This document shows positions 26,357-59,538 of a DNA stretch of 59,538 nt, piece after piece (positions within the stretch are counted from its first letter, which is position 1; each line of letters opens with the position of its first letter). Both the position numbers and the translations under genes were made by a program. The notes under the pieces were generated by a model, which saw only the letters and a program-made list of their open reading frames with translations, had not been told where the DNA came from and made no database searches. The stretch comes from Ectocarpus siliculosus (taxonomy: Eukaryota > Sar > Phaeophyceae > Ectocarpales > Ectocarpaceae). The DNA lies in contig FN649739.1 in the NCBI GenBank assembly GCA_000310025.1, forward strand, positions 1,990,110-2,049,647. Reading direction: 5' to 3'.

Positions 26357-29300
26357 ATGAGTTCCGAAACACTTATTATTCATACAACAGCACAAACCCG
26401 CATCGACGCACTGCATGCGATGGCGGCAGGAGGAGGAGGAGCAGCCGCTGCCAACCCGAGGGCCACCACGGCGGCGGAGGCCCCGGCCAAAACGCTACGC
26501 GGCTATCAGTCCCGCATAGCAAACAAGTGCTTGCACGACAACACGATCGTCGTCCTGCCGACCGGATCGGGCAAGACCCTCCTCGCGGCCGAGGTCATCA
26601 AGCGACTGGGGCCCCCCGCCCTCTTCCTCGTGCCGACATGCCTCTTGGTGGACCAGCAGGCCGAAGCCCTCGGCTCCTGGACCGGACTAAGCGTGGCCAA
26701 GTACAGGGGCGGGGCGGGACTGCCGCCGTCAACGTTCAAGATATTAGTGAGCACTCCCCAGGTAAGGTCCGTGCGTGCAGTTCGAGTACGTGCGTACAGC
26801 AGTTTAGAGTTACTGCCGGGTGTTCGCGCAGCAGGGAGGGGGAGGTGGTGCAGCAGGTTTGGGCGTGGGCATGTCTTCTGTGTGAAGGTAGCATTGACTT
26901 GCACGAAAATCGGATGATGTACACCAGTATTGTACAGCAATCGTTGATGACGGTCGTCGTCTTATTTGCGCGACAAAGTCTTGTGTGTGTGTCTTGATGA
27001 CACCCGCCGCTTGCCGCCGCGTCTGTTTTCTTTGCCTCTCCTTACACGCTGGAACAGGCCTTCAGGACTGCACAACAGAACGGGATCGGACATCTGCAGT
27101 GGTCGGCGTTCAGGGTTGTGATCTTCGATGAGGTGAATGCAATGCGTTACTCATAGCTTCTACCTTCAGCATACAGCAGAAGGTACTTGTAGCGATACAT
27201 GATAAATAAGTGTACACAGCAGTAGTTTTTTTTTCCCCTCGCCGCAACGTCTATACAGTGGGGGTCCCTCTATAGTGCGGGTTATATAGTGCGGGTGCCC
27301 GCTATAGTGCGGGTGAAATCGCTTGGCACAAATTGGGTCCTCTATAGTGCGGGTGCCGCACTATTCGGGGCACCCCTCTATAGTGCGGGTTTGACCCCTC
27401 TCAAGACCCTATATAGTGCGGATTTGACGTCACGCCATGTCACCACCGGCCTAGATGCGGTCAAACCTAGATAGCCAACCCACACATTTTCCCGACACAC
27501 ACACACAGTCGTATTGGCGTTCGCATTTAGCGCATTGCGCAATTTTCGAATTTTGGCCCCATTCCAGGGACCTTGATTTTTACCCGTTGGCACTGACGTC
27601 TTTTCATTGGTCAGCCGGTTAGCGCGGTCGATGCTAATAATAAATACACACACACACACACACACACACACCCCTACCGGCCACGCATAGCAGCAGCAGC
27701 ATACCCCTACTGGCCACAGGAACAGCAGCAGAGGCACAGGATGCCGTGTGCAGCAGGCGAACTCTGCCAACTTAGCAACCTCACACCCAAAGCCCCCGAC
27801 GGCCACCAATGTCGAGGAGGATGTGGCGGCAGACTGCATGGTATATGCGGCGAGGTGGAGGAGGACGGCGAGGACGAAATGAACCGCCTCTGTCCGGCGT
27901 GCTTCTCCTCCAAACTTTCCAAACACTTCGCCCCCCTGGAAAGCTACGCGGCAGGGTGCAGCTTGAACGAGGCCAGCTACTTGCTCAAGAGGGCACGGAT
28001 GTTGATGATCGAAGCGCATGCATCGAAGCCATCGCGCCAGGCCGATGTTAGGGAGTTTTTTGACGCGTAGAGCAATCAGCCAGCCGTTTTGCCCCACGCA
28101 GCTCCTGCTGTAATTTGCTGGTAGTGGATCTGCCGGGTGTTTGAATGAGTCAACTGTCTGCGAGTTTCACTTTGCCGTTTTTTCTTCAAAGCCGCCCCCC
28201 CCAAACGTATATGGCGTTGTGTTGTGTTGGGGTTTTCTTGGAAAACTTGAGGTAGAACGTGCGGGAAGTACAATGTAGGATTTTTTTTTGGGTCCTTGTT
28301 TCTATTATATTTTTCTTGGAGTGTCCCCCCTCTCTTTTTTTCTCCGTGGGTGTGTCTGGGTCGTGTTGAAAAGGTGTTCGTTTCGTTTGTGAACGGACGT
28401 GTTTCGTATTTGGCAAGTTCAGGTCTCATTTTGTAGGCCTAACCTTGTTTTTTTAATGTGCAAGCGGAACTATCAATGCAGAATGGAACAAGGAACAACA
28501 ACATGGGCTGTGCGCAGCCTTCCTTTTTGGTACAGAGCGTACATTGCGTAACATCTCTGTACAGTACAGGATGTGGTTGTATAATATTTGCCGCTGCTGT
28601 GCAGTACATCCCGATGTATGTGCAACTTTTGCTGTTCTCTGCTCACCTGCGAACGGATGCAGGCTTCTATCCGTAGAGATACTGCATTTTTTCCCTCACT
28701 TGTTACATGCACTACCGTGCCACCTGCATACAGTATCCCTCGCTTTTGGCTACGTCCTATGCTAAAACCTAGTGATTTCGTGGATAGTGCGCCTACCCGC
28801 ATTATTGAGGGTTCTGAAAACCTGAATAGTGCGCCTTCCCGCACTAGTCAGGCTCGAAAGCATATAATGCGGGTGCCCTCTATAGTGCGGGTTTTTTCGC
28901 GTGTCACATACCCGCACTATAGAGGGACCCCCACTGTATGTCGTTTTTGTCCCGGTGACCCAAAGGTGACCCTTTCAGAGAGAACCGCTGACCCGAAGGT
29001 GACCCTTTCAGAGAGAACCGCTGACAGATTGTTCATCTCCTCTCCGTTCTCTGATCAAGCGTGTCTCTCTGCATTCCGATCAATACCTTATTTCTCGCAC
29101 CGAACAAAAAGCAGGAGCAGAGGAAAGAGAGTGACACCGCATCCACTAAAATTTCGAAACGGATTTTTTTCACTTTTCCTCGAGTCGAAAACAAATAAGT
29201 CGGCCGTCGTTCCTGCTAGCCACCGTCCTTGGTGTCACTCTCTCGGTCGAATTTTTCTCGTGCAGGAAAACAGCGAACCACAATAACATAGACACATACG

Positions 29301-32008
29301 GTAGACTGTAAGGAAACATATGTACCGCGGGCGCCACGGTCCCGGTATAAGAACACTCTCCCGTTCTTACGTGTACCCCGCTTTACACACAGAAACGCTT
29401 GGAACCGGGTGTACATTGTCTCATGTACCTGCTGCGCCCATAAAGTTGCCCGATGAAGCAAGATGATGTACTCCGTTGCGAAATATGAGACCGATACGGA
29501 ACTTGCGCTTCATACCGCAAAATGCACATCGTGTCAAAGTTTCTTGATTGGCCAAATGTTGCCTTGTGCCTGTCACCCACGGTACGGTTGTGGTATGCAT
29601 TGAGAAGCCTCTTCGTTGGGTGCGTGATCCTTTTTTTTCCTAGGTTATGTACCGGTTCTGTTTTTTGGCGGCCGAAGGTACTCGCTTGTTCTTGACTAAG
29701 ACAAGTTTTGCGGATGACTCACAGTTCAACGTGCGGGGGGGATATAGCTCAGTTGGCTAGAGCGTTTGTCTCATAAGCAGAAGGTCGAGAGTTCGAGCCT
29801 CTCTATCCCCGCACTTTTTGCCCCAAGTGGAGTTTGCAACGACAGACTAATCTCACGTCCTCAAACCTATATATTTGTACGAAAGTACATCTGCTGCAAA
29901 AATATGAAATACGAAGATCATCTCTGTTGGATGTATGATTGCATGTTGTGCATGTACGTGTTTTTTTGCTGCCGTGTCCGACGGAGTGCTGTGCCACACA
30001 GCGCGTGGCGCTTGGGTTTCCTCGTCTGCTTTGCCCCTGCACACATATGATCGTCTGCATCTTGCCACCATTTCAGCAAAAACAACTCGTGTCTCTCCCC
30101 CCGTACACGCACATGGACAAATCAAAGGTGCACCACGTGCTGAAGGATCACCCCTACCGCAAGCTCGCCCTGAGCCTTCGTCGATCGTCGCTCACGCCAC
30201 CACCTGCTGCTGCTGCTGCTGCTGGGCCAAGCTCACACCCCCGCGTCGTGGGCCTGACCGCCTCCTACTCCTACGCCGTCGGCGACGCCAAGACGAAAGC
30301 CTCTCTGACCAGGATGTGCCACGAGCTCCGCATCACCACCACGGAAACGGCGACCCGCCAAGAGCTGGAGGCGAGCGGGTACCACGCCACGGGCGCGGCG
30401 GCCGAGGTGTTGCTGGGCCCCCGTCCCGATTCCGCCGGCACCACCGACGACGCGGCGCCCGCTGGCGTCGTCCCCGAGGCCGACCGGAAGCCGCACGAGA
30501 TGGGGACCACCTTCTTCCGTCGGGAGGCCAAGGGCACCAGCACCGCCTTCACTCGCCTGCTCATGGCCTGCGTGCGCGGCATGGAAGAGGCCACGGCTGC
30601 TGCTGCAGCGGCGGCGGCGGAGGCGGCGCAGGCTGCTGCGCCCTCGTCGCAGCCCCGCCAAACGCTGTTGTTCGCCTCGCCGATGCCCCCCTCCGGGGAT
30701 CTAGCTCCCAGAGAGTGGGGCGCCTACACCCACAAGCTTGCGCTCAAAGCCGCCGGCGGCGGCGGCGGCGGCGGCGGCGGAGCAAAGATTCTCGAGACTG
30801 CTGCCGGTCGCGGCATACGCGGCGGGGGCGGTTTTCCCGGGAAAAGCGTCACGAAGCGGTGTACCCGGTGTGGCATCGACGCGAACGCCGGACAACCGCG
30901 GCGGTCGTCGGCCCGGCCGACGCTTCACCTGCTGCTCGCCGAGCTGGAGCACTGGTACGAGGCCGTCAAGGTCCTGGTCGTGTCCTGGGAGGAGAGGGAA
31001 GACGACGCCGCGACCATCCTCGACATGTTCGGCTGCACGGGGTCCCCGAGCGACCGCGCCGCGTCCGAGGCCGTCTGGCCGGGCGACGTGCGGCAAAAGA
31101 TCTCCGCCTTCTGGGAGGCGGTTCCCGGAACGTTCCCTCGGTACGAGAAACTGAAGAACGTGCTCCTGGACAAGTACGACCACCACGGCGGAGACGGCAG
31201 CAGCAGCGGCGGCGGCGGCGGCGGCGGAAAGAAGGGCTTCCGCGGCATAGTGTTCGTTGTCCAGCGCGTGACGACCCACGTGCTGGCCCACGCGATCGCC
31301 GCCGACCCCCGCATGGCGCCCCGCTTCTCCGCGGCCTGCCTGTACGCCTCCTCCTCCCCGGCGACGGCCTCCCTCTCCGTGACGAAGGCGCAGGCGCAGG
31401 CCAGCATCGAGGCCTTCCGGTCCGGCAGCGTGAACCTCCTCCTGGCCACCGTTGTCGCCGAGGAGGGCATGGACGTCCCCAAGGCGAACTGCGTGGTCCG
31501 CTACGACGCCATGGTGCACGCCGTGTCCATGGTCCAGGGGCGGGGCCGCGCGAGGGAGGAGGACAGCAGCTTCGTCGTCCTCAGCGAGAGGCCCGACCGC
31601 ACCACGGCCGACCTCGAGGCCGTCGAGCGCCAGCAGCAGCGGCTCGTGAGGGGCTTCAGGCCGCCCGCGGCCGGCAGCGCGGCCGCGGCCGCGGGCGACG
31701 CCGCCCTCGTCGTGGCCCAGAGGGCGCGCGAGCGCGGGGCGTGCGAGGCGCTTCTCGGCGCCGCGGCGGCGCAAGGTGGAGGCGGGGGCGGGGCCCTGAG
31801 CGCGATTAACTTCTTCGCCCAGAAGACGAAGGCCGCGCTAGAGGACGGGTGGAGCAAGGGGGCGGGCGGCCAGTGGGTATGCACCCTGTCCTACGAGTCT
31901 CCGCTGCGCGAGCTCCACGCCACTGGGACGGCCCCCGGGAAGAAGGCCGCCAAGAAACTGGCGGCCGCGAAACTCCTCGCCGGTCTTCGCGAGGCGGTGG
32001 CGGCTTGA
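26357..32008 (+). CDS. Dicer/RIG-I-type DExH helicase with one dsRNA-binding domain, no RNase III (3 exons, 786 aa)
   Basis: Predicted dsRNA-dependent ATPase of the Dicer/RIG-I group. Exons 26357-26761, 27058-27132 and 30128-32008, all phase 0. Motifs in order: RGYQ at about 48-51; Walker A PTGSGKT 68-74; FLVPTCLLVDQQ; ILVSTPQ; DEVHH 159-163 (Walker B, cut by intron 2 between E160 and V161), followed by xHPYR as in Dicer; GLTAS 202-206; IVFVVQRVTTHVLAHAI; LLATVVAEEGMDVPKANCV near 600; QGRGRAR 630-636. Residues about 717-783 form a dsRNA-binding fold (SAINFFAQK ... WVCTLSYES ... GKKAAKKLAAAKLLAGL). There is no PAZ, RNase III or CARD. Poly-Ala and poly-Gly runs interrupt the helicase. ATG 26357 is chosen as the first in-frame ATG. 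A close paralogue lies at 54020-57046. The role is inferred as dsRNA sensing or an RNAi accessory. Confidence 0.92.
27645..27671. repeat. CA microsatellite
   Basis: About 13 AC units inside the pogo-like element. Confidence 0.95.
27741..28070 (+). CDS. Transposon-borne Cys-rich (zinc-finger-like) protein, 109 aa
   Basis: ATG 27741 to TAG 28070, uninterrupted, entirely within the inverted-repeat element in the helicase intron. Residues 3-54 hold eight or nine Cys/His positions: C3, C9, H22, C24, C28, H33, C36, C51, C54, in the order HQCxxxC, HGxC, CPAC, which could bind zinc. A hydrophilic helical C-terminus follows. I do not recognise the family. It could be the tail of a pogo/CENP-B-type transposase, or an independent DNA-binding protein of the element. 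Whether it is expressed is unknown. Confidence 0.5.
   Translation: MPCAAGELCQLSNLTPKAPDGHQCRGGCGGRLHGICGEVEEDGEDEMNRLCPACFSSKLSKHFAPLESYAAGCSLNEASYLLKRARMLMIEAHASKPSRQADVREFFDA
28963..29027. repeat. 33-bp tandem repeat, 2 copies
   Basis: GGTGACCCTTTCAGAGAGAA is at 28965 and 28998, each followed by CCGCTGAC. It lies just outside the pogo-like element. Confidence 0.85.
29738..29811 (+). tRNA. tRNA-Met (CAT), elongator type
   Basis: A full cloverleaf can be drawn: acceptor GGGGATA/TATCCCC (7 bp), D-stem GCTC/GAGC, anticodon stem TTTGT/GCAGA with loop CTCATAA (anticodon CAT), T-stem GAGAG/CTCTC with loop TTCGAGC. The middle resembles fungal elongator tRNA-Met (AGTCTCATAA...GAAGGTCGAGAGTTCGA). 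No intron and no encoded CCA. The discriminator base would be G, which is unusual. A T5 pol III stop follows. The gene lies in the second intron of the helicase gene, on the same strand. Confidence 0.9.
29815..29819 (+). terminator. Pol III T5 terminator of tRNA-Met
   Basis: Five T residues start three bases after the tRNA 3' end. Confidence 0.7.
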
Positions 32009-33096: not shown

Positions 33097-36000
33097 ATGT
33101 CGTCTTTGCTCAACAGAAGCCGGTTTGGTGCTCATGGCGACGTCATGGGCGCTTCCCCCTCAGACGAAGCCGGAAAGACTACTCTCTGCGACGAGATCAA
33201 GAGCAGAGCTAGGTGTGGGACTTGATGATGGGTAACACGCACTTGTGCAGTCGCACAGCAGCAAGAGGTAGAGGGGAGGACAATGTTCGTCCACCTAGGT
33301 ACTGCGAGTTAGAGAGAGACGGCGTCTTCTGCTGTTGTTCGGCAGTTAGCGGTGTAGCGGTGTAGACATACCGTCCGGCGATAGAACGATGCATTTCCCC
33401 GCCAGCAAAGCCGCACGTCCAATCTCGCCGCGTGGACGGGTGGGCCGCATCACGGCATCCTTTGTCCAATACCCTTGAACTACAGCAGTGCCGCGGCTTG
33501 TATGCGGCTTGTTTCCCTGTCCACGTGCCGCCGCTTTTAAGATGAAAGGTACATGAATGTGTAGCCAAGCGCTCTCGGAAGATTGTTGTCCATCACTTGC
33601 GCACGGAAGACACCCCCCCCCCCCCCATGGACGATACGTACTCTTCATCTCTTCCTCGATCAGCAGTAGACACTACTGCTGCTATCGTCTTTTATACATA
33701 GTGGCTACTGCTGCAGCTTACCTAATGTTTTATTGGGCGTTGTTTTTCCTAAGGAGCAAGTGTACTTGGGGGAGGACATGGGGATGAGGCATTCGCGCCT
33801 GTCCCCAAGCCGTAAACACCACCGTTACAGAGTTGAGATTGTCCGACAAACGTAGATACGCAAAGCCACGTCGAAGGTATTTTCCAGCGAGGGCACAGCA
33901 GTTCCTTGAGCTCTGTTAGATCATTTCTTGACTCCGTCCGTGGGCTTGTGGCACGGAAGCCACTTTCACGTCTTCCAGAAAGCCTTCGACATTTTATCTT
34001 TGTGGGCTACTGTGCAGTCTTACGTTTAAGGCGGTCGCAGTGTTCAATATAAGGCGGGTGAAATTGGCTGCTGGCATACATGGAATAGTCCAAGATGTTC
34101 TCTACACATTGAACATGGCGGCAGCCCCAGTCCAGCTGCCGTGTCACCGCCTTATTCGAGGACCCGCAATTTAGTCTTTCCATGATCGGTGCCGCACGCC
34201 GTGCTCCTCCTACTGCTGTAACAACCGCACTCCTCGACGGGACGTGGAATGCTTGTGCGTGTGCATCGTGTACGCCTTGACGTTCGTGTTGTGCTGCTGT
34301 AGGTGCTGCTTTGTGTTCGCCGTTGTGTTAGGTGTAGCTCCATTCCCACCGTTGGTGAACATGGCATTGCTTCTTCTCGAGCGCCGCTGTCGCGGTGTTG
34401 GGGGCTTCAGCAGTAGATGTTGGGCTGTATTGTTGCCTCTGCTGGCTGTGCTTCTGGCTCTTTTGCCACGGCGCTGCCCAGGTACACGCTCCGGCGTTGC
34501 CCTCACGGTGTCCGCGACTCCCGCTCGAAACGAAAGTTGTTCGCTTGCTTCCTGCAGACCCCGTTGAACTGAGAGAATTAAACAGAAGAAGAGCACGCGT
34601 TGTACATCGCAGTTTACGTGTCTGATGCGGAACATTGTACCGCTCTTCGCTTGCATGTTCCCGCGCCGCTCTTGCATGCTGTCGTCGCACGAGCCCGCTC
34701 AGCTCCTGGTTGAATGCAGGGCCAAACGGCAGGAGCTGCCGTTTGGCCCTGCATGTGGTCCAGGCTAACTCTCTTCATCGTCACGTATGCATATGCGTGT
34801 AGACCTTTTTTGCGAGTTGTCGGCGTCAGCCAGCTGGACAACTTAACAGGACGTTTAGTATAAGTAAAGAAATCGCGAAATAACGCTCGAGTTTGTCCGT
34901 TCTGTGTGTTTGGACGCGTGGCATCAGGGCCGAGTTCGCCAGGAAGAACCTTCCCCAGGCAGAGATGCTTTACTCGAAGGCTGTGGAGATCAGGCCGGAA
35001 GACGCCACGCTGTACAGGTTTGTTTGTTTGAGATTGCGTACACCGCGTCGACCGCTGGCTGACGACCACCAATGACATTGCGTCACCCCCCCAAGCGTGA
35101 AAAATATCGAAGATTTTTTTGCTGTGCGCGTGTTTGTCTGGTTTTATCTCATTCACACCGATCCCCAGAAACCGGTTGACCATGAAAGACACGCCATTCT
35201 TGGCGGGGCAAACAAACGCTATTATAGTATTTTAGTAACACTTTCTACGCCGTGTAAGCGAATACCCATTGAGTTTGCATTGAACGTGCTACGTATTCGC
35301 AGAGCAAGATTATTTTCATGCCTCCTCCCATCTGACTACGGGGGGCCGCAGATGAGACTTGGCATAGAGATACGTGTGTGTGTGAGGTGTTAAGAGACGC
35401 GCCCGTTTCCTCCCCCCCCCACCCCCCAGCAACTTGGCGGCCGTGCGGCTTGGTCTGAACAAGCCCGGGCCGGCGCTGGAGAACGCCGTCGAGGCGCTTC
35501 GCCTGGACCCGGCCTACGCCAAGGGCCACTACCGCAAGGGGCAGGCGCTGATGGCGCTCGCGAGGCCGGGGGAGGCCGCAGAGGCTTACCGAGCGGGGGC
35601 GGCCCTCGAGCCGGAGAGCAAGCTGTGGGCCCCCCTCGTAGAAAAGGCGGAGAAGGCGGCGGCTTCGGCGCCGGCATCGTCGCCTACGAAAGCGACACCA
35701 ACCGAAGCCAGCAGCAGCAGCAGCAGCGGTAGCAGCGGTAGAAAGAGTGCTGGTTCGTCAAAGAGCGGCGGGACTAGCGCTGCTTCGCCGGCAGCTTCCA
35801 CCGCCTCTAGTGGTGGTGGTGGTGGTGGTGGTGGTGGTGGTAGCAGCGGTAGCGGTGATGCGGGGGCGGGGATGAAGGGGTACAAGATAACGGCAGACGG
35901 GAAGAAGACGACGTATTTCAACAACGACCTCACGGAAGAGGCCAAGGCCCTCATCGGGGACATTGCTCCCAAGAAGCTGGAGCCCGCCGCTGCAACCGCG

Positions 36001-39000
36001 CAAGATTCGACCTCGGCGGGGGGCAACGAGGCGAGCGCTTGGAACAAGGCGGGGACCTGGGAATCTCGAGATATGACAAGGTTTGTGGCGCGACTCATCG
36101 CCTTGCTTGCCGTCGGCACAAGGCTTGTGGCTCGACGTATCATCTTCTTTGCCGTCAGCATCGCAAAAGGGACAGCTGGAAATCGCGAAAACATCGAAGG
36201 AAAGAATGAAGAAATATTTGTTGGTTTTGTCCTTGTTTTTTCTCCTCACCGGAATCGGGATGAAACGAATGCGCGCTTTTGTGGGTGGTGTTCCTCGGTT
36301 GTTTTGGGGCCCTTGGTACCTGTGGAACTTTTGCGGGGCCCCCTGTTTCTTTTTTTTTTTGTCTTCTCGTCAAATCAGCACTCATGGCAGTTGTACCGTT
36401 TACTCCAACCCACGGTCACACAGAAGGGTTCCTCTTCCTGAGGCTCCCTACCCACCACTCCTGCGGTGCTTTGCATCCGCGAGTGCAGCACCCTGTTCCC
36501 TCTGTGTACATACAAACTAGCGCTTTCCACCCAGGCACGGAACGGAAGCGAGAGAATAACTCACTTTGCAAGAAAGCTCGCTTACGCCGGGGTTCGAACC
36601 CCTGACCCTGGCCACCAGAAGGTTTCCGCCGAGGTACCAACTATGACTATCGTTGGCGTCCTCAATATTGCGGCGAGAAACAAACGTACGCTTCGTTGGG
36701 ATAGCCGTGGATCTCGTGTGCCGGTCTCACACTCCGGTTTGGCAAACCATCTATCCGTTGTCGGGGTTGGGGGAAGAGGCTGCAGACCGGCGGTAACCGT
36801 GGGGTGTAGCGCAGGCGACGTGGCATCGCTGCTGTGACGTTCGTTCATGGGTGTGCCAACCAGGCCGCGGGCGGGGCAGAGCTTATCCCCGGTCGGGCAT
36901 GTAGGGTCAGCAGAACGCGTTACGTGCTGCCCGGCTTAAGGCCTGCTTTTCCCGTCTGTGCTTGTTTATGCACGTGGACACATGGGTAGGCACCCGTTGC
37001 TTCATTGCGCACCTGCCCGAAAGTCCTGGGACCCCACCTCTTCTACACACCATCCAAGTTCTGATGTTGCTGCCACCCTTTATTTAGTCTCGTTGTTCAA
37101 CCTTCTCGCTTATTCCAATTTCGTTGAGCTTCGGCCTGTTTTCACTGTTGTGTGCCCTCGATGGGTTTACCCTCCGGCCTGCTTGCCCCTTGTGTCCTCC
37201 CAGCTGGGCGAAGCAGCGTCTCGAAGAGCTCCTGGTAGGAGTGGAGCTGGACGCCTCGGAAAGCGTCGTGAAGGTCGTGAAGGTCGACAAACTCGAGGGA
37301 GACGCGGAGGTAGGTTATGTAGTTTGTGTCCTTCCTTCCTGGCAACAGCAACAGCAACGGCAGCAGCAACAACAACAGCAGCAGCAGTTGTGGTTTCGCT
37401 TTTTCTATCTAGGGTAGTCGTTGAGTTGCACCAGCTGTTGCCTCTTGGGGGGCCGGGGGGGGCTCTCACAGGGCTTTCACGGACAGGATCGGCGCCCTGT
37501 TGAGGCCTCAGGCGTACAAAAATCTCACTGTGGACGCCGAGGTTGAATGCGTTGGCCTCTTCCCCGGCGTCGCGGGTTTTCCGGCAGCGGCGCAGGTTTA
37601 CATTTTTGCCCTTCGCGTCGGGTAAGTAAAGTCGATGGACATGAGGTTTTCTTTCCAGTACATAGTCCGCGGTTTTGTTTTGTCGCTTTTTCTTTGGGGG
37701 CAAGAGGTGTCGGTGCCTTGTTGTGTGGTATCACGCGCCCCCCTCGATAGAAGTGGGTTTTGGACGCGAATGCAGGGAGGGTTGTCTGCAATGTGCAGTG
37801 CTTCCGGTAGCTTGGTTTGTTCTTCCGGGTGACGGTGGTGGATCAGGAATGATTACAGCGGTTTTTGTCCCCAACTGGTCAAAATTCGGTACGCCGAGAA
37901 AGCACGCCCTTCTCTCTATCTCGCATCATCCACCTGACATATTATCTTCTGTTGATGGATAAATGGGTACCTTTTTTTGTCCAGATCTCGTTCTCGCGAG
38001 GGAAGATGTACAACGTTTGACGTCCGGTTCGACCTAAAGTGGGAAGCATGGTCAACCTGACACATTTATCTTCTGTTGATAAATGGATTGATACCTTTTT
38101 TTGTCCAGATCTCGTTTTCCCGAGGGAAGAAGAGGTACATGTTCGACTTCCGCTTCGAACTTAAGTGGGAAGCGCCGGACCTCGACTGCGGCCCCGCGAA
38201 GGGGGTGCTCATGTACCCTGACGTGGGCCAGGACTGCGACGGGGTGTACGACGTCGAGTGCAGGGTGAGCCAACACAGCACAGAGGAGAGAAAAGTGTCC
38301 AGCAGGTGTTTCTCCCACTCACTACAAAAGACTTGAACACATCCCCTTCGACTATAATACTATGGTTGTATCTCGAACGGGAAGTCTTTCTGTGTTTGTA
38401 TGTATACTTTCTAAAGAAGAAAAAGGCGTTTTTGGTTGAGGGGTTGCCAGCCAGGCTGTAATTTCTATTATAAAAGTTCTATTATTTTTGTTGGGGTATG
38501 ACGTTTTTTGTCGTGGCTTGGTTTCGAGTCTTGTACCGCTTTCAACGACTGCTTTGCTCCCGGCTATGAAGGATTTTGCTGTGCACTCTTGTTGGAACGC
38601 TTTTGCTCTACCAGCATACAGGCGTGACGGTGTGGTTGAAGGGTTCGAAAACCAGACGTTCGAAAATCAGACCTCCACAGCAGTTGTGTTTCTTTGTTTC
38701 GTCGATGTAGGTCACCTGGGTCTGTCTGTGTTTTGCGCCCCGTGACTGCTGCTGTTGTGTCCAGACGTTCGGAACGGAGAAGGACGAGATGCATAGGGTG
38801 GCGTGTCGGCCAATGCAATGTTGAAGAAAATGAGTACGCCCTCGTCCGTTGTCCTCGCCAACTGTGTTTGCGTCGCAGGTGGATAGCAGCACCCCGACCG
38901 CCGCCAGAGGATTCGTGGACCGACACGTGCGACCAGAAGGCTCGGGTCTGAGGGAGGCGGCGCTGTCTCGCTTGACGGCTTTTACCACCGAATACTACGC

Positions 39001-46700: not shown

Positions 46701-49272
46701 GGGCACGGGATAGGCCTCAAAGGATTTGTCGACCCAGCCGAAAAGACACGGAGGGCAACCAAGGTGACCCAGATGGAAAATGTGGGTTTAAAATCACCCG
46801 GTTCAAACGACTGGACGTTCCATCTAACGCCCAGCCACGACGTCTAGTAGGCAAACACCAGAAACAGAGACCCGCAACCCGGGGACTAGGTATATTAGAA
46901 CAGTCCTTGCCCCCCTCGCATTCGCCCACACACCGTGTTGCCGCGGTAACCCGATGAACCACTTCGTCCTCGCCCTGTAGAAAGACGGGGGGGGGGGGGC
47001 ATACAAGGTCCATGTGGCCTCACGGCCTACCCGCGGCGCTTCTTGGAAGCCAAGGATGTTGCGAACCACTACTGCACCATCACCACTACCATGGCCAACA
47101 CCGCCTCCACCAAGTACAGCAAGAGCAGCCAAAAAATATATACTGATGTAGTTTCGTATCAACAGGCCTAACGCCTAACCCCTNNNNNNNNNNNNNNNNN
47201 NNNNNNNNNNNNNNNNNNNNNNNNNNNNNNNNNNNNNNNNNNNNNNNNNNNNNNNNNNNNNNNNNNNNNNNNNNNNNNNNNNNACCGTCGCAGGTTCTTC
47301 TCCGAGCGGTGGGCTTTCCGCTCTAAGCAAGCGCCGGAAGGTGACTTCGAATGAACGGGGTGGGGGCGACGATGACTGGAGGGGGTACGGCGAAGTGGAA
47401 CCGCTGGGGGTGGGGGTGGGGGAGGTGAGCTCGACGCGGGATACCATAATTGTGCTGTTGTTCCACCCGTCTCTACGCCGTAAGTCTGGGAGGCATCAGT
47501 TTTTTTTTCTAAGCATGTTGAAGGCTGAATAAAATGGTTGCTCGCTTTAAGTTTATGTGCTGCAGCTCTCCAACGCCATTCGCCTCCAGGCAGATACAAT
47601 GCCCCCAACAGAGTTCCTTCGGAACTACCTCAGCTCCCATGAGCAGTGGCGCAATTTCTTAGGAAGTCTCCGGGAGGCTGCGCTTGAGCAGCAAAGTGTT
47701 ACGTGTGTTGTTTTTTGGCAAAGCTATCGTCGGGATTGGTTCGTGGTGAGTGTGTTGTTTGGGGACAATAGGGAGGAATATAGGAATGTTGACCGGGTTA
47801 AGAGGTGTTGCGAGGTCTTGAAAACGACTATCCAGATGATAGATGATGGTACTGTACTCGGGTGTTGCAAGTGCGTGGGACAGAGACAGAGACAGGGACA
47901 GGGACAGGGACAGATACAGATACAAAGAGAGAGACAGAGAGACAGAGACAGAGACAGAGACAGATATAGATACAGATACAGAGAGAGAAAGAGAGAGGCA
48001 GAGAGAGAAAGAGACAGAGACAGATACAAAGAGAGACAGAGAGAGACAGAGAGAGACAGAGAGAGACAGAGAGACAGAGACAGACAGAGAGACAGAGACA
48101 GAGACAGGGACAGAGACAGAGACAGATACAAAGAGAGAGACAGAGAGACAGAGAGACAGAGACAGAGACAGAGACAGAGACAGATACAGAGAGAGAAAGA
48201 GAGAGGCAGAGAGAGAAAGAGACAGAGACAGATACAAAGAGAGACAGAGACAGACAGAGACAGACAGAGACAGACAGAGAGACAGAGACAGACAGAGAGA
48301 CAGAGACAGAGGCAGAGACAGACAGAGACAGACAGAAAGAGAGAGCGCGTTCTTTCTCGTTCTGGCCTCTCCGCTGGTCTCGTTTGTTTAATCCATTCGC
48401 GAATGCATGAAGCGGATGTGAAGCTCGTCTGTTTTGTTCTGCCGAATATGGCCTCTCAAACTTTTCGCCTCGCCCCTCTCGTTTCCCTTATCCCTGCTCG
48501 GCCTTGGAATTTTCAGACTTCTTCTGTTGCTGCAGAGGGGGACGACGGGGGTAGTCTGTTCGGCCTCGTGAAGCGGCGGCCGGTGGGAGCCCGGACATCC
48601 ATTCGGAGGGAAGGCGGCACGCTGGTGAGCCCCGGCGACTTCCATTCGCATGTACACGATGAGGCGTGGTTTGGCGCTGTTGCTGTTGCTGTTGCTGTTG
48701 CTGGTGGAGGTGGTGACGAGGGGATATGGACGAGGTTGTAGTTGTCGATGTAGTCAGGGCGTACAGACATGTATTCGTCGAAGAAAAAAACGATTCTGTG
48801 TACGCAAAAAAATAAAGTTGCAATTTGTTGCTGTAGTAGTGGTGGTTGTGTGGTGGTGTGATGAGGAGATATGAACGAGTCCCCTGTCTGTGTTGTTTTT
48901 CAGGTGATACGTCGTGGATGTTTTCGACAAAAACAAAATGTGTGGTATAAAATCTTGGAAGTTTGTTGCGGTAGTGATGACGTGTGGTGCCTTCCCACGC
49001 ATCACCAAACGCAAAACCCGAACGAATTCCTCGTGCTCTGCGTGTTTCAACGTCCTCGCACACGAGACCTTGTTTGCCATTCTCTCTCTCTCTCCCTCGC
49101 TTTCCCTTTTGTTTCTTGTTTTTTCCCGGGCCCAACTACTAAAAGGTTGTGGATATCCCCCCCGAGGGACTCTCCGGACAGGCGGCATCGGTGGGGGCGT
49201 TTGCCTTGATGTGGAACGGCATCGTGATCGGGATGACGGCCTCCTTGCTCACCGGTGAGAGGCTGTAAGCCG

Positions 49273-54019: not shown

Positions 54020-57000
54020 TTAAGTCGCTATCGCCTCAAGTAGATCTGCGACGAGCCTCGCCGCCGCAAGCTTCCTCGAAAGTTTCTTCCCGCTCATCGC
54101 CTGCCCCGAGGCGTGAACCTCTCGCAACGCCGACTTGTACGACAGGGTGCACACCCACAAGCGACTAGACGGATCCTGTTCAAATGTCTCCGTGACAACC
54201 CCCATCGTCTTCTCTGCGAAAATATCAACTGCACTCAGCACTCCAGACGGTGGGATCGGCGTCCCGTTCGGAGACACCCCCACCCCCAGTCCGTGCTTGT
54301 CCTGCACGTCTAGGAGTACGGCTCGTGCTCCGCGTTCATATGACCGCAGCGTGGCCAAACCATCTTCGCCGAAGTTCGTAGCGGAAGAGTTATCGATGCC
54401 GCTCGGCGCGCTTGACTCGCTGTTCACGCCCGCGTCCGGTTTCTGCCGTCCGGTCATGACGGCCGCGTCCTCTTCCGGCATGGCCACCGCCGCACCACTA
54501 ACACGGTGAAGCTCGTTCGTGCCCGTTGCTCTGGTAAGGCTCGCGACTAGCCTCGCCGCCGCAAGCTTCCTCGCCATCTGCTTCCCGCTCACCGCCTCCC
54601 CCGAGGCGTGAACCTCGCGCAACGCCGACTTGTACGACAGGGTGCATGCCCATAGGCGGCTCGTAGAGTCCTGGTTGAACGTCTCCGTGACAACCCCCAT
54701 CGTCTTCTCTGCGAAAATATCAACTGCACTCAGCACTCCAGACGGTGGGATCGGCGTCCCGTTCGGAGACACACCCACCCCCAGCCCGTGCTTGTCCTGC
54801 ACGTCTAGGAGTACGGCTCGTGCTCCGCGTTCAAACGACTGCAGCGCGGCCGAACCGTCGTCGCCGTCACTGGTAGTAGAAGAGTTACCCGTGCCACTCC
54901 CTAAGCTCGACTCGCTACGGACGTTCGCGTCGGGTGGCTGCCGCCCGGTCATGGCGGTCGTCTCCTCTTCCGGCATGGCCACCGCCGCACCACTACCACG
55001 GTGAAGCTCGTTCGTGCCCGTCGCGCTGATAAGGCTCGCGACTAGCCTCGCCGCCGCAAGCTTCCTCGCCACCTTCTTCCCGCTCACCGCCTCCCCCGAG
55101 GCGTGAACCTCGCGCAACGCCGACTTGTACGACAGGGTGCATGCCCATAGGCGGCTCGTAGAGTCCTGGTTGAACGTCTCCATGACAATCCCCATCGTCT
55201 TCTCTGCGAAAAGATGTACTGCACTCAGCACCCCCGGTGGTGGGATAGGCGTCCCGTTCGGAGACACCCCCACCCCCAGCCCGTGCTTGTCCTGCACGTC
55301 TAGGAGCACGCCACGTGCTCCGTGTTCAAGGAGCTCAAGAAACTCCTGTGCAGCCAAACCACCGTCGACGTCGCCGCTAGGAGTCAAGCCTGGACCGCGC
55401 CCCTCGCTCGCTGGCTCTGCAGGAAGCGGATGCCGACCGGCAGGCTCGTTGTATGTGTCTGCACTGCTGCTGCTGCTGCTGCTGGCCTCCGAAGAATCAG
55501 TACTGTCGTCCGCGTCCTCCACGATGCTACCGGAAGGCCCGTCTCCCGTGTCTGTGCTGCTGCCAGCACCATCCGAACCAAGAGTCGCGTCGTCGCCCTG
55601 CTGGACTGGGTCTGGCACAACGGCGGCGGCGGCGGCGGCGGCCACAACCTCCACGCCGCGTTCGCCTTGGTGGTCTGGCTCCATGTTTCGGAGGTGCCAC
55701 AGCTGCCGCTGCTCGACGGCCTCGAGATCGGCCGTCGTGCGGTCCGCCCGCTCGCAGAGCACCACGAAGCTGCTTTCTGCCCCCCTCGCGCGCCCCCGCC
55801 CCTGCACCATGGACACGGCGTGGTCCATGGGGTCGTACCGGACCACGCAGTTCGCGTCGGGGACGTCGATGCCCTCCTCGGCGACGCAGGTCGACAGGAG
55901 GAGGTTCACGCTGCCGGACCGGAAGGCCTCGAGGTTCTCCTCGGTATCTCTCTCGGAGAGGGAGAGAGAGGCCGTCGTGGGGGAGGAGGAGGCGTACAGG
56001 CAGGCCGCGGAGAAGCGGGGCGCCATGCGGGGGTCGGCGGCGATCACGTGGGCCAGGACGTGGGTTGTCATGCGCTGGCGCACGAACACTATGCCGAGGA
56101 AGGCTTCCCCGTCGCTGCTGCCGCTTCCATCGCCTCCGTGGTGGTCGTACTTGTCCAGAAGAACTTTCTTCAGGTGCTCGAACCGAGGGAACATTCTGGG
56201 AACCGCCTCCCAGAAGGCCGATATCTTTTGCCGCACGTCGCCCGGCCAGACGGCCTCGGGTGGGGCGCGGTGGCTCGGGGACCCCGTGCAGCCAAACATG
56301 TCGAGGATGATCGCGGCCTCGTCTTCCCTCTCCTCCCAGGACACGACCAGGGCCCTGACGGCCTCGTACCAGTGCTCCAGCTCGGCGAGCATCGGACGAT
56401 GCACAGACGGCGGCTGCGGCTGCCGCGAGTACCGGTTGGTTCGACAGCCCCTGTTGGTGGCGCCACCGCCTCCTCGTCCCCCGCGCCGGCCGCCTCTACG
56501 ACCGCGGCCGCCGCCGCCGCCGGCACCGTTGTGTGCGAGGCTGTGGGCGTAGGCGCCCCACTCGCGAGTCTTCATCTGACCGTCGAGGACAAGCGGCGAG
56601 GCGAAAGCAGGGTGCTCCGACACGGCCGTTATCGCCTTCTCCATACTGCGGACGCAGATCATGATCCGACGGGAAAAGTCGGTGCCTTCGTGCCTGCGCT
56701 CCCGGAGCAAGAACGTCGTCGCCTGCTGTTGGGTTCTGTTCGCCTCGAGCAGCACTCCGGACGGGGTTGCCGTCGAGGGAGGCAGCAACACCTCGGTCAC
56801 CACGTCGTGGCACCCGCCCGCTTCCAGTTCTTGGCCGGATGCCGTCTCGATGTTGGTGATGCACAGCTCGCTCAATAACTGGCGCAGGCGATCTTCCGCC
56901 TTCGCGTTCCCGAACTCGTAGGAGTAGGAGGCCGTGAGACCCAACACGCGCTGGGTGCCCAATGCCGACGGCGGCGACTGCAACCGCCAATAGCAAAGAC

Positions 57001-57046
57001 TCTGAGCCAGTTCGCGGTACGGGTGCTTTTTGAGCATATGGTGGAC
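54020..57046 (-). CDS. Dicer/RIG-I-type helicase paralogue with three tandem dsRNA-binding domains; 3' exon, 5' partial
   Basis: One 3027-nt exon (1008 aa plus TAA) read from 57046 down to 54020. The acceptor CAG/GTCCACCAT gives VHHMLKKHPYRELAQSL, so the DE of the DExH box ends the previous exon, exactly as in the gene at 26357-32008. Then GLTASYSYEFGNAKAE, IVFVRQRMTTHVLAH, LLLSTCVAEEGIDVPDANCV and QGRGRARG. After an acidic Ser-rich linker come three dsRNA-binding domains near exon residues 605, 770 and 935, spaced 165 aa (495 nt). Each reads GVLSAVxxFAEKTMG, W(A/V)CTLSYKSALREVHASG, then a basic Ala-rich helix (xxRKLAAARLVA). Each is preceded by an ERGARAVLLDVQDKHGLGVG-type leader. There is no RNase III or PAZ. 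Walker A exons are not found between 57047 and the window end; they are probably beyond it. Role inferred as dsRNA binding or unwinding. Confidence 0.9.
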   Translation of the reverse strand, partial: VHHMLKKHPYRELAQSLCYWRLQSPPSALGTQRVLGLTASYSYEFGNAKAEDRLRQLLSELCITNIETASGQELEAGGCHDVVTEVLLPPSTATPSGVLLEANRTQQQATTFLLRERRHEGTDFSRRIMICVRSMEKAITAVSEHPAFASPLVLDGQMKTREWGAYAHSLAHNGAGGGGGRGRRGGRRGGRGGGGATNRGCRTNRYSRQPQPPSVHRPMLAELEHWYEAVRALVVSWEEREDEAAIILDMFGCTGSPSHRAPPEAVWPGDVRQKISAFWEAVPRMFPRFEHLKKVLLDKYDHHGGDGSGSSDGEAFLGIVFVRQRMTTHVLAHVIAADPRMAPRFSAACLYASSSPTTASLSLSERDTEENLEAFRSGSVNLLLSTCVAEEGIDVPDANCVVRYDPMDHAVSMVQGRGRARGAESSFVVLCERADRTTADLEAVEQRQLWHLRNMEPDHQGERGVEVVAAAAAAAVVPDPVQQGDDATLGSDGAGSSTDTGDGPSGSIVEDADDSTDSSEASSSSSSSADTYNEPAGRHPLPAEPASEGRGPGLTPSGDVDGGLAAQEFLELLEHGARGVLLDVQDKHGLGVGVSPNGTPIPPPGVLSAVHLFAEKTMGIVMETFNQDSTSRLWACTLSYKSALREVHASGEAVSGKKVARKLAAARLVASLISATGTNELHRGSGAAVAMPEEETTAMTGRQPPDANVRSESSLGSGTGNSSTTSDGDDGSAALQSFERGARAVLLDVQDKHGLGVGVSPNGTPIPPSGVLSAVDIFAEKTMGVVTETFNQDSTSRLWACTLSYKSALREVHASGEAVSGKQMARKLAAARLVASLTRATGTNELHRVSGAAVAMPEEDAAVMTGRQKPDAGVNSESSAPSGIDNSSATNFGEDGLATLRSYERGARAVLLDVQDKHGLGVGVSPNGTPIPPSGVLSAVDIFAEKTMGVVTETFEQDPSSRLWVCTLSYKSALREVHASGQAMSGKKLSRKLAAARLVADLLEAIAT
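54038..55522 (-). repeat. 495-bp coding tandem repeat, 3 copies (dsRNA-binding domain array)
   Basis: Corresponding positions recur at exact 495-base spacing, for example the FAEKT coding segments near 54220, 54715 and 55210. The two C-terminal copies are close to identical in DNA. The most N-terminal copy matches in the domain but its linker differs. Confidence 0.95.
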
Positions 57047-58500
57047 CTGTTGCGCGACGGGGGGGTAAGCTAGTTGTTGAATGTAAAAGCAAAGCGAAGT
57101 CGACGAGATGCCATAATCTGGCGGGACATCGCGACACACAACAAACACCCAACACAGCGGTGCACACCATTTCAAGCTGGACCACTCATCACCATTCGGA
57201 TCTGAGCGGCAACGGCGCACGAACGCTAGGGTGGGGCATGTGCATGAGTGAGAGGTAGTGGAGGAGCGAATGGAAGAGGGAGGAGGAATTACTGTTGGGC
57301 TATTCTGATAGGTCACAGGATGTTGTGCCGTTGCATGGACGTACGTATGTGTATGAAAGCTATCGCTCGACGCGAAACCGATGTACAGCCTTCCGCGAAG
57401 CTGTTCTGCCGGGGAGACCTTGGTCTACGGAAAACGCTGGTACTTCCTCTGTCTCATGAGTGTGTAGCGTTATGTTTGTACGAGCACTTGACCGTGTCCG
57501 ATGCCTTCCGCGATGACTTTTTCGACATCACGGAGCGTTTTTTTGGGTTCAACACTTCATGTATTTCGATCATTACCCTGCATGGGCCAACGGCCGGAAA
57601 AATGATCAGTAGGTCCAAAAATGGCCACAGGTTGCCCCCATTTCGGCGGGGGGAAGACAAACACAAAGAAACACGACTCCTCAGAAAACACCAAAAATCG
57701 GGGATATATTGGCTTGTTTTTGGTATTGAAGTAAGGTCATTTTGTTGTATTTCTTGTTTCATCAGCATCGCCTTCGCCTTATCTTTGCAACGAACCCCAA
57801 GATTACAACCATCGGCGCTACCACTCCGCCTCAAACACTTATCGCCCGAAACGCTACAGACTCATGGGACGGAGGAAGTGCGTTCTCAACGAATATGGAC
57901 GTCTCCACAGGGCAACCGAGATCGCCACAACAGGGCGAAGGGCTACCGTCCAAAATGACAGCAAACAGCACCGTCTAACATCCAAGTCAGGCCCGACTAC
58001 ATGACGCATACCAGAACATCGATTTCCAGTACGGTCGTGAGGGGATACGAGAAGACCGTGCCGATGATTAAGCGTCGGTCAACGTGTCTACCCGCAAGAA
58101 ATACCCTTCCCACCGCAAGGGTGTACACAGAAAAGTGAAAACGTCACCTAGATGTTACACAGATAGTGAAAACGAGACATAGATGTTAGAGAGATCGGAA
58201 TAAAAAATAATCCGTGGACAGTACTTTCGAGGAAACTATCAGAATACTTCAAGCAGTCTCGGAAGAGAGATGAACGAGAGAGTCGCCGGAGGGGCCAGGG
58301 AGACCAAGCCCGAGGGTTTCGGATTCCCCAGCTCCGCAGGTGGCGCCAAGAGGGACGCATCCATAGTCGGGTTTCTTGCTGATCAACCATCAGTAACATC
58401 CTTCGCTCGGATCGTATCTTGGTCCTTATCTTGTATGTGAAACAATGGTTACAGCAATTCTACCCCTGTCATCCACATAGTAGCTTTTCTTGATTTTAGA
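57047..58500. other. Upstream intron/flank of helicase 2, no exon seen
   Basis: By analogy with the paralogue this should be the large intron that splits the DExH box. I searched both strands by eye for PTGSGKT-, LVDQQ- and STPQ-like exons with splice sites and found none. Confidence 0.5.
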
Positions 58501-58504
58501 ATAC

Positions 58505-59538
58505 CCTCCCCCCCCCCCCTTCGGTGTTTGCCATCGGGATTGGGTTTTCGTCGCTTGACAACGACGTTGTAAAAAAAGCCAATTCACTTCGTGAACTCGG
58601 CAACCAGGTTACCGGGTTCTTTTACATCTGTTTTTTTTTTTGGCGGTAACCATAATGGTGGTCGAGTAGATCTATTGTGCGGGGTGGAGAAACCTCACTC
58701 CGGGCAAGGGGGATGATCGCACCACGTTGGGATAAAACGGTCAAGCATCCTCGAGGCAGTTACACAGTGCTTATAACTGTCTCTGGAAGTGGACGCACCA
58801 GAAAATAGATTAAGTCATACGCAGCTGTCATCCGTACGCAAGGAAGTAAGCACAAGATGCCGAGCACCCTTAGCAGGATGCAGCGCACCCTTCATGCGAC
58901 TCGCCGAATACCTCACGGCGCTTCGCGCTTGGTGATGTGAGAGCCTGGTCCGGTGAGAACCCGGCGTGCTCCGTCCCGGCTTTGTAGGGATGCGAGGTCA
59001 ATGGTCTAACGACTTCGGCATGCACGACTATGAGTACCCCCCCCCCCCTGTGGCGGGGTTGGGTTTTCCTCGCTTGGCAACCACGTTGTAAAACAAGCCG
59101 CCCCCCCCCCGGTGTTTTCCCTCCGGGTTGGGGGTTTTTCCCTTGGGAACCAAGTTGTAAAAAAAAACCCATCCCTTTCTGAGCTCCACCACCCGGGTAC
59201 CCATCTTTTTTTGCCTTTTTTTTTTTGGGGGAACCCTAAAGGGGGGCCAAGAAAATATGTTGGGGGGGGGCCAAAAACCCCCCTCCCCCCCAGGGGGAAG
59301 AACCCCTCCCGTTGTCTTAAAAATGGGCCAGCATCCCCCAGGGCGCTACACAGTGGTTATAACTATTTCTGAAGTGGAAGCCCCCCAAAAAAAATTAAGT
59401 CCTACCCCGCTGTCCTCCCTACCCCAGGGAATAAGCCCCAAAAGCCGGAAACCCCTAACAGGATGCCGCGCACCCTTTCTGTGACTCCCCCAAAACCTCC
59501 CGGGGCTTCGCTCCTGGTGAATTGAGAGCCCGGGCCGG
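58505..59538. repeat. Terminal two-copy repeat; second copy probably low-quality sequence
   Basis: From about 59104 to the end, the sequence repeats 58520-58970 (GGTGTTT..GGGTT...TTGTAAAA; CAGTG.TTATAACT; AGGATGC.GCGCACCCTT). The second copy has many isolated bases replaced by C/G/A/T runs (CCCCCC, GGGGGG, AAAAAA). That pattern suggests poor base calling at a contig end rather than true divergence. Confidence 0.65.
58933..59050. repeat. Dispersed repeat, copy C
   Basis: Nearly the same as 16363-16478 over about 115 bp, ending in a C-run. A third start (GAGAGCCCGGGCCGG) appears at the very end of the window. Confidence 0.7.

Follow-up and report, generated by a model that had tools for sequence, protein, structure and literature searches.

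The Ectocarpus siliculosus genome carries, on contig 14 (C14; FN649739.1), two related helicase genes within a stretch of 59,538 nucleotides (positions 1,990,110 to 2,049,647; hereafter the window). One of them, gene 2, ends in three in-frame copies of a single domain, the middle copy being a mosaic of its two neighbours, and no nuclease domain was detected on its contig. By sequence, gene 2 is, at group level, a member of the duplex-RNA-activated ATPases, and its repeated domain is plausibly a very divergent, fast-evolving candidate for the fold of double-stranded RNA (dsRNA)-binding domains (dsRBDs). The array looks roughly as old as the split between gene 2 and its paralogue, gene 1, with recent exchange among the copies.

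Architecture of gene 2 and placement of its helicase

All gene 2 features lie on the minus strand. The last exon (exon B, 54020..57046) runs from a splice acceptor to the stop codon and contributes 1008 open codons to a surrounding open frame of 1134 codons. The acceptor (...CAACAG/GTCCAC, with the slash at the cut) divides motif II mid-way, and the exon opens with the end of that motif, VHH. TAS (motif III), an insert region and Hel2 with motif VI (QGRGRAR) follow, and C-terminal to Hel2 come an acidic Ser/Gly-rich linker, three dsRBD-like domains and the stop codon. The Helicase_C core of Hel2 occupies 55787..55990 (frame residues 479–546) by its Pfam match, which scores 49 bits against a cut-off of 23.5; ~275 residues, the place of a possible Hel2i insert, separate TAS from the start of this match. 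The preceding exon (exon A, Pfam DEAD 57.1 bits) sits 6.8 kb upstream, past the end of the window, at 63815-64300 in window-extended numbering (C14:2053924-2054409). It encodes PTGSGKT and the beginning of motif II, and its 3′ end reads ...VVVFDE before a GT donor. Joined by the predicted splice, exons A and B give 1170 amino acids (aa) with PTGSGKT, DEVHH, TAS and QGRGRAR in place. This gene model covers exons A and B, and its start codons, splice sites and exon joins are predictions. The predicted intron of ~6.8 kb occupies 57047..59538 within the window and continues past it through a stretch of 1340 N. Two-copy repeats with a spacing of ~585 bp, 77-79% alike, lie in this intron at 58734-59538 and reach the 1340-N stretch.

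The array consists of a 165-codon unit repeated at an exact spacing of 495 bp in one open frame (tandem-repeat score 1990), with a shared motif at frame residues 707, 872 and 1037. A sequence-only reading of this DNA had described three in-frame copies at exactly this spacing, linkers included, and the layout is as it stated; the span it gave coincides exactly with exon B. Copy 1, closest to the helicase, lies at 55038..55337, copy 2 at 54543..54842 and the C-terminal copy 3 at 54048..54347. Over the 300-nucleotide reference stretch, for which copy 3 serves as the reference, copies 1 and 2 are 85% and 91% identical to it, respectively. Each core is preceded by an N-terminal extension, LLDVQDKHGLGVGVSPNGTPIPP (55229-55306, 54734-54811 and 54239-54316), which does not vary among the three copies and is unrecognisable in gene 1. 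The linkers are acidic and 60 residues long, with net charges of -6 and -5, whereas the domains carry charges of +3, +3 and +1.

Motifs I, II, III and VI of a superfamily 2 (SF2) helicase core are present, and the nearest matches are helicases of Dicers and RIG-I-like receptors (RLRs). The best Protein Data Bank (PDB) matches of exon B are AncD1D2, an ancestral Dicer helicase, at 70 bits, MDA5 and LGP2 at ~63 and Dicers at ~50. A two-sequence profile gave the same ranking of ancestral Dicer helicase, then MDA5/LGP2, then Dicers, and exon A alone has a Dicer-related helicase (DRH) as its top match (39 bits). Because of this ranking, we group gene 2 with the duplex-RNA-activated ATPases, which comprise RLRs, Dicers and DRHs (PMC8659333).

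Several domains that accompany such helicases were sought, in the genome-wide searches across a 189-Mb assembly of 492 contigs. An exon-wise six-frame search found RNase III at two places in the genome, on C15 and C21, and none on C14, in line with the earlier description of gene 2 as a helicase lacking RNase III. PAZ gave a single weak genome match, on C2; this test is itself weak, as a presumed Dicer locus on C21 gave none either. No Pfam match to the RIG-I-type C-terminal domain was found in exon B or in the last exon of gene 1, and none to CARDs in exon A, the most upstream exon sought. Among RLRs, LGP2 lacks CARDs.

Gene 1 lies on the plus strand, tail to tail with gene 2 and 22 kb from it. 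The two had been proposed to be paralogues, which their comparison bears out (55% identity over 527 aligned positions, E 5.7e-139), and their last introns fall at the identical place, DE/VHH. Exon 1 (26420..26761) encodes Hel1 with PTGSGKT, and its open frame matches Pfam ResIII (37.6 bits) and DEAD (32.7 bits); its start codon was picked by eye. The start of exon 2 (27058..27132), also placed by eye with the help of the gene 2 alignment and a CAG acceptor, is uncertain; the exon ends in ...FDE before VHH. The last exon (30128..32008) contains VHH, TAS, Hel2 (Helicase_C 43.1 bits) and, as the sequence-only reading had it, a single copy of the dsRBD-like domain, at 31790..32005. For the helicase part (464 aligned codons), the ratio of nonsynonymous to synonymous divergence (dN/dS) is ~0.47 (0.257/0.552), which suggests constraint on both genes. 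The predicted last intron of gene 1 contains a tRNA-Met (CAT) gene at 29738-29812, in the same orientation as gene 1.

Exchange among the copies and the age of the array

An assembly artefact, which the sequence-only reading had named as the outcome that would overturn it, is unlikely, because no two copies are the same, exact repeats within the array reach at most 106 bp, and the closest runs of N (47184-47283 and from 59539) lie 4-7 kb away. The first of these runs is exactly 100 N long and is probably a scaffold join. A genome search turned up the array nowhere else. The broader suspicion that gene 2 is a pseudogene or an artefact, which could appeal to the 1340-N stretch inside its intron, is very improbable in view of the 1008 open codons of the last exon, the motifs present, a dN/dS below 1 against the paralogue and the same differences among copies.

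The copies are unequally related. Over the domain, identity is 93.4% between copies 1 and 2, 87.8% between copies 2 and 3, and 84.5% between copies 1 and 3. The last two copies had been called nearly identical in DNA; this is true only of their first halves, which are 98.6% identical, while the second halves are 77.6% identical. Among 58 variable sites (offsets -24 to 293), 37 group copies 1 and 2, 15 group copies 2 and 3, four group copies 1 and 3, and two differ three ways. A single breakpoint accommodates 50 of the 52 informative sites of the first two kinds, a fit reached by none of 20,000 shuffles. It falls at 54680..54687 on the minus strand (offset 124/131); before it, copy 2 resembles copy 3, and after it, copy 1.

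Synonymous divergence (dS) follows the same division. Before the breakpoint, copies 2 and 3 have a dS of 0.05, and copies 1 and 3 one of 0.23. After it, dS is 0.02 between copies 1 and 2, whereas copy 3 differs from copy 2 by 0.77 and from copy 1 by 0.68. These segment values are rough, resting on 33-52 synonymous sites each. Within the linkers lie two diverged islands with the same limits in the unit (54836..54964 between copies 1 and 2; 54341..54469 between copies 2 and 3; both minus strand), for which dS is 0.54. The islands differ at 37 of 129 sites, whereas the exchanged parts on either side of them differ at 9 of 360 (Fisher 7.5e-16). With synonymous sites only, the counts are ~12 of 33 and 3 of 93 (p 5e-6). 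Both p-values are too small by an unquantified factor, because the limits of the islands were chosen after the differences had been seen, but the contrast is still large.

Between the two helicase genes, dS is 0.55 over 464 codons and 0.34 over the last 180 of these. Since the dS of the linker islands and of the second half of copy 3 at least matches these values, the array looks roughly as old as the split between the paralogues, with recent exchange; this is the simplest account, and it fits better than a new amplification. Both neighbours would recently have overwritten the middle copy, through gene conversion or unequal exchange. Weighing against an old array are the spread of segment dS, from 0.02 to 0.77 beside 0.34-0.55 for the paralogues, and the value of 0.23 between copies 1 and 3 in their first halves, which makes divergence uneven.

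The sequence-only reading had instead proposed a recent amplification, and of that proposal only the exchanged stretches are recent. In its strongest form, two old units A-B would have become A-(B/A)-B by one unequal crossover, followed by fast divergence of the linker. Such an event would account for the single breakpoint that covers 50 of the 52 informative domain sites and for the dS of 0.02-0.05 in the exchanged blocks. A duplicated block should diverge evenly, however, and a single unequal crossover is disfavoured because it predicts linkers as alike as the exchanged flanks, at odds with the contrast between island and flanks. We consider recent triplication rather unlikely, and an old array with exchange the more probable of the two.

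Identity of the repeated domain

The case for a dsRBD fold (alpha-beta-beta-beta-alpha) comes from weak sequence matches. The three array copies share 41-43% identity over 44 residues with the domain of gene 1 (E 1.5e-6 to 5.4e-6), and that domain scores 20.5 bits against Pfam dsrm. Seven of its eight sub-threshold matches in the PDB are dsRBD proteins (best E 0.41), namely R2D2, TARBP2, Staufen and the entry LD06392p, which aligned on the same stretch as R2D2. A 72-column profile of the four domains, searched against 177,635 PDB sequences, returned three matches at E <= 10 (best E 0.66): residues 584-624 of AncD1D2, which follow its helicase on the C-terminal side, and two Staufen sequences. 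On our reading of its place and sequence, the AncD1D2 segment is the DUF283 of that protein. DUF283 has the dsRBD fold (PMC10328071). In the last helix, copies 1 and 3 and gene 1 retain a KK pair.

Other results weigh against this identification. The 20.5 bits of the gene 1 domain lie below the dsrm cut-off of 23, none of the three array copies matches any dsRBD in Pfam, and a genome-wide search with dsrm gave no match at E <= 0.001. A whole-genome search for Dicer_dimer (DUF283) gave two weak matches at E <= 10, none of them on C14. Copies 3 and 1, searched singly against the PDB with phmmer, matched nothing at E <= 10, and the sole match of a longer profile that included the N-terminal extension was one unrelated protein. 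In copy 2, KQ replaces the KK pair, and in copy 3, S replaces A in that motif. The GPxH loop, a feature of canonical dsRBDs, was not seen in the repeats.

An array of canonical dsRBDs is therefore not established, given that the array copies lack a Pfam dsRBD match and that dsrm finds nothing genome-wide. The earlier assignment of the repeats to dsRBDs stands in part: the weak PDB matches make it plausible, and the scores fall below every curated threshold. We conjecture that the repeat possibly descends from the DUF283 of Dicer, because it follows Hel2 as DUF283 does.

The closest known systems share some features with gene 2 and differ in others. Like Dicer, it has an SF2 helicase with a dsRBD-fold candidate after Hel2, and the repeat profile has its best, though weak, PDB match in the AncD1D2 construct, at the corresponding place. 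Unlike Dicer, it has the domain three times, PAZ and RNase III are undetected in it, and the Dicer_dimer profile is without a match on its contig. MDA5 and LGP2 score nearly as well against gene 2 as the ancestral Dicer helicase does, but gene 2 differs from RLRs and DRHs in its dsRBD-like array, and its scanned exons gave no Pfam match to CARDs or to a RIG-I-type C-terminal domain. Tandem dsRBDs on a helicase also occur in DHX9/MLE, a DEAH/RHA helicase. There, however, the dsRBDs (two and N-terminal; PMC5173168) precede the core, and the helicase is not of the Dicer/RLR type. The helicase fusions to RNA-dependent RNA polymerase (RdRP) of oomycetes and Dictyostelium likewise place a Dicer-type helicase outside Dicer in RNA interference (RNAi), and the Dictyostelium RDRs have DEVH at motif II (PMC4791657). 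In Ectocarpus, by contrast, C14 is without an RdRP match, the RdRP matches being on C17 and C474.

RNA interference context and proposed function

The genome encodes presumed RNAi components beside which gene 2 might act. The presumed Dicer locus (C21:2820759-2840210) contains helicase_C and RNase III exons and a weak DUF283 match (E 0.087) over ~20 kb of one strand, which may belong to one gene. A second RNase III and PAZ were undetected there by the genome profile searches. Since these matches are weak or partial, DUF283, RNase III and PAZ at this locus appear to be divergent or split by introns. The Piwi domain was found at one locus, on C2, with six exon matches, and RdRP at two (C17:1194778-1201306 and C474:77892-84393) with 14 matches. 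The two RdRP loci share the same seven matches each, several with an internal stop, which suggests a recent duplication or two haplotypes. One Dicer homologue and one Argonaute homologue are listed for Ectocarpus (PMC4513859), Fucus is reported to have one Dicer and one Argonaute (PMC6085071), and a single Argonaute also figures in the title of PMC12867755. Because the presumed Dicer locus is separate, in agreement with these published counts, genes 1 and 2 appear to be additional to Dicer. Three weak genome matches were set aside by eye: a DEAD-box-like fragment on C33, the RNase III on C15, which is of another kind, and an apparently spurious match on C472.

We propose, at about even confidence, that gene 2 encodes a dsRNA-activated ATPase whose array provides avidity on long dsRNA, and that it serves as a sensor or RNAi cofactor beside Dicer and Argonaute. 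The helicase would close around dsRNA and hydrolyse ATP, while the three putative weak dsRNA contacts of the array, on acidic flexible linkers, would make binding to long dsRNA tighter and longer-lived. The sequence-only reading, too, had suggested that selection for avidity or for discrimination of dsRNA by length may lie behind the array. The protein could thus be a dsRNA sensor, or a loading or translocation cofactor, by analogy with the nematode DRHs, which act beside Dicer and RdRP in antiviral RNAi (PMC8659333).

The main rival to this proposal is that the repeats are protein-protein domains resembling type B dsRBDs, the array being a docking scaffold for Dicer, Argonaute or itself. Type B dsRBDs bind Dicer helicases (PMC10328071), and the weak dsRBD signal, the unseen GPxH loop, the KQ of copy 2 and the extension LLDVQDKHGLGVGVSPNGTPIPP, constant across the array and unrecognisable in gene 1, would all suit a docking role; the KK pair that copies 1 and 3 share with gene 1 would not. 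We give the scaffold limited credence. Still less probable is that gene 2 is the helicase half of a split Dicer, acting in trans with a nuclease half. A helicase followed by a DUF283-like domain does repeat the order of the N-terminal half of Dicer, and helicase domains outside Dicer are fused to RdRP in oomycetes and Dictyostelium (PMC4791657), but the presumed Dicer locus on C21 has helicase_C and RNase III exons of its own on one strand. As a bolder and doubtful conjecture, a brown-algal lineage of Dicer-like helicases without a nuclease might have expanded a DUF283/dsRBD-type domain into an array homogenised by gene conversion and might act as autonomous, length-discriminating dsRNA receptors, a non-animal counterpart of MDA5.

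In a Pfam scan of eight neighbouring open frames, seven were without a match at E <= 0.01 and one, at 35386-36438, had a weak tetratricopeptide match (25.3 bits, cut-off 27); Rfam found nothing in the window beyond the one tRNA. Elsewhere in the genome, the EsV-1-7 cysteine-motif family is very large: of 880 first-look candidates on many contigs, 150 were scored and all 150 were over the cut-off. EsV-1-7 families are large in brown algae and rare in other stramenopiles (PMC12993054; PMC7457493).

Relatives were sought in viral contigs, where 54 stretches matched two short peptide patterns and none was confirmed as a relative, and in contigs of prokaryote genomes, where 134 stretches likewise yielded no confirmed relative. 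One distant phage helicase, under two accessions, matched at E 4e-3, and NCBIfam and PADLOC returned generic or distant helicase matches only. These searches say little on other algae, because they covered few or no eukaryotes, and orthologues may well be annotated in other brown-algal genomes. The sequence-only reading knew of no described helicase with this architecture. Likewise, we found no Dicer/RLR-family helicase with three tandem dsRBD-type domains described in the open-access literature, among the matches listed.

Brown algae are complex multicellular organisms in which, judging from literature listings, dsRNA sensing is little known; in Fucus serratus, 21-nt virus-derived small RNAs are described (PMC6085071). 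A pair of Dicer-like helicases in which no nuclease was detected would add to this picture a layer of sensors or cofactors that can be tested. The mosaic copy 2 offers a clear case of exchange among protein-domain repeats, and a paralogue pair with three domains versus one would be a natural experiment on how the number of dsRBDs relates to dsRNA affinity and length choice.

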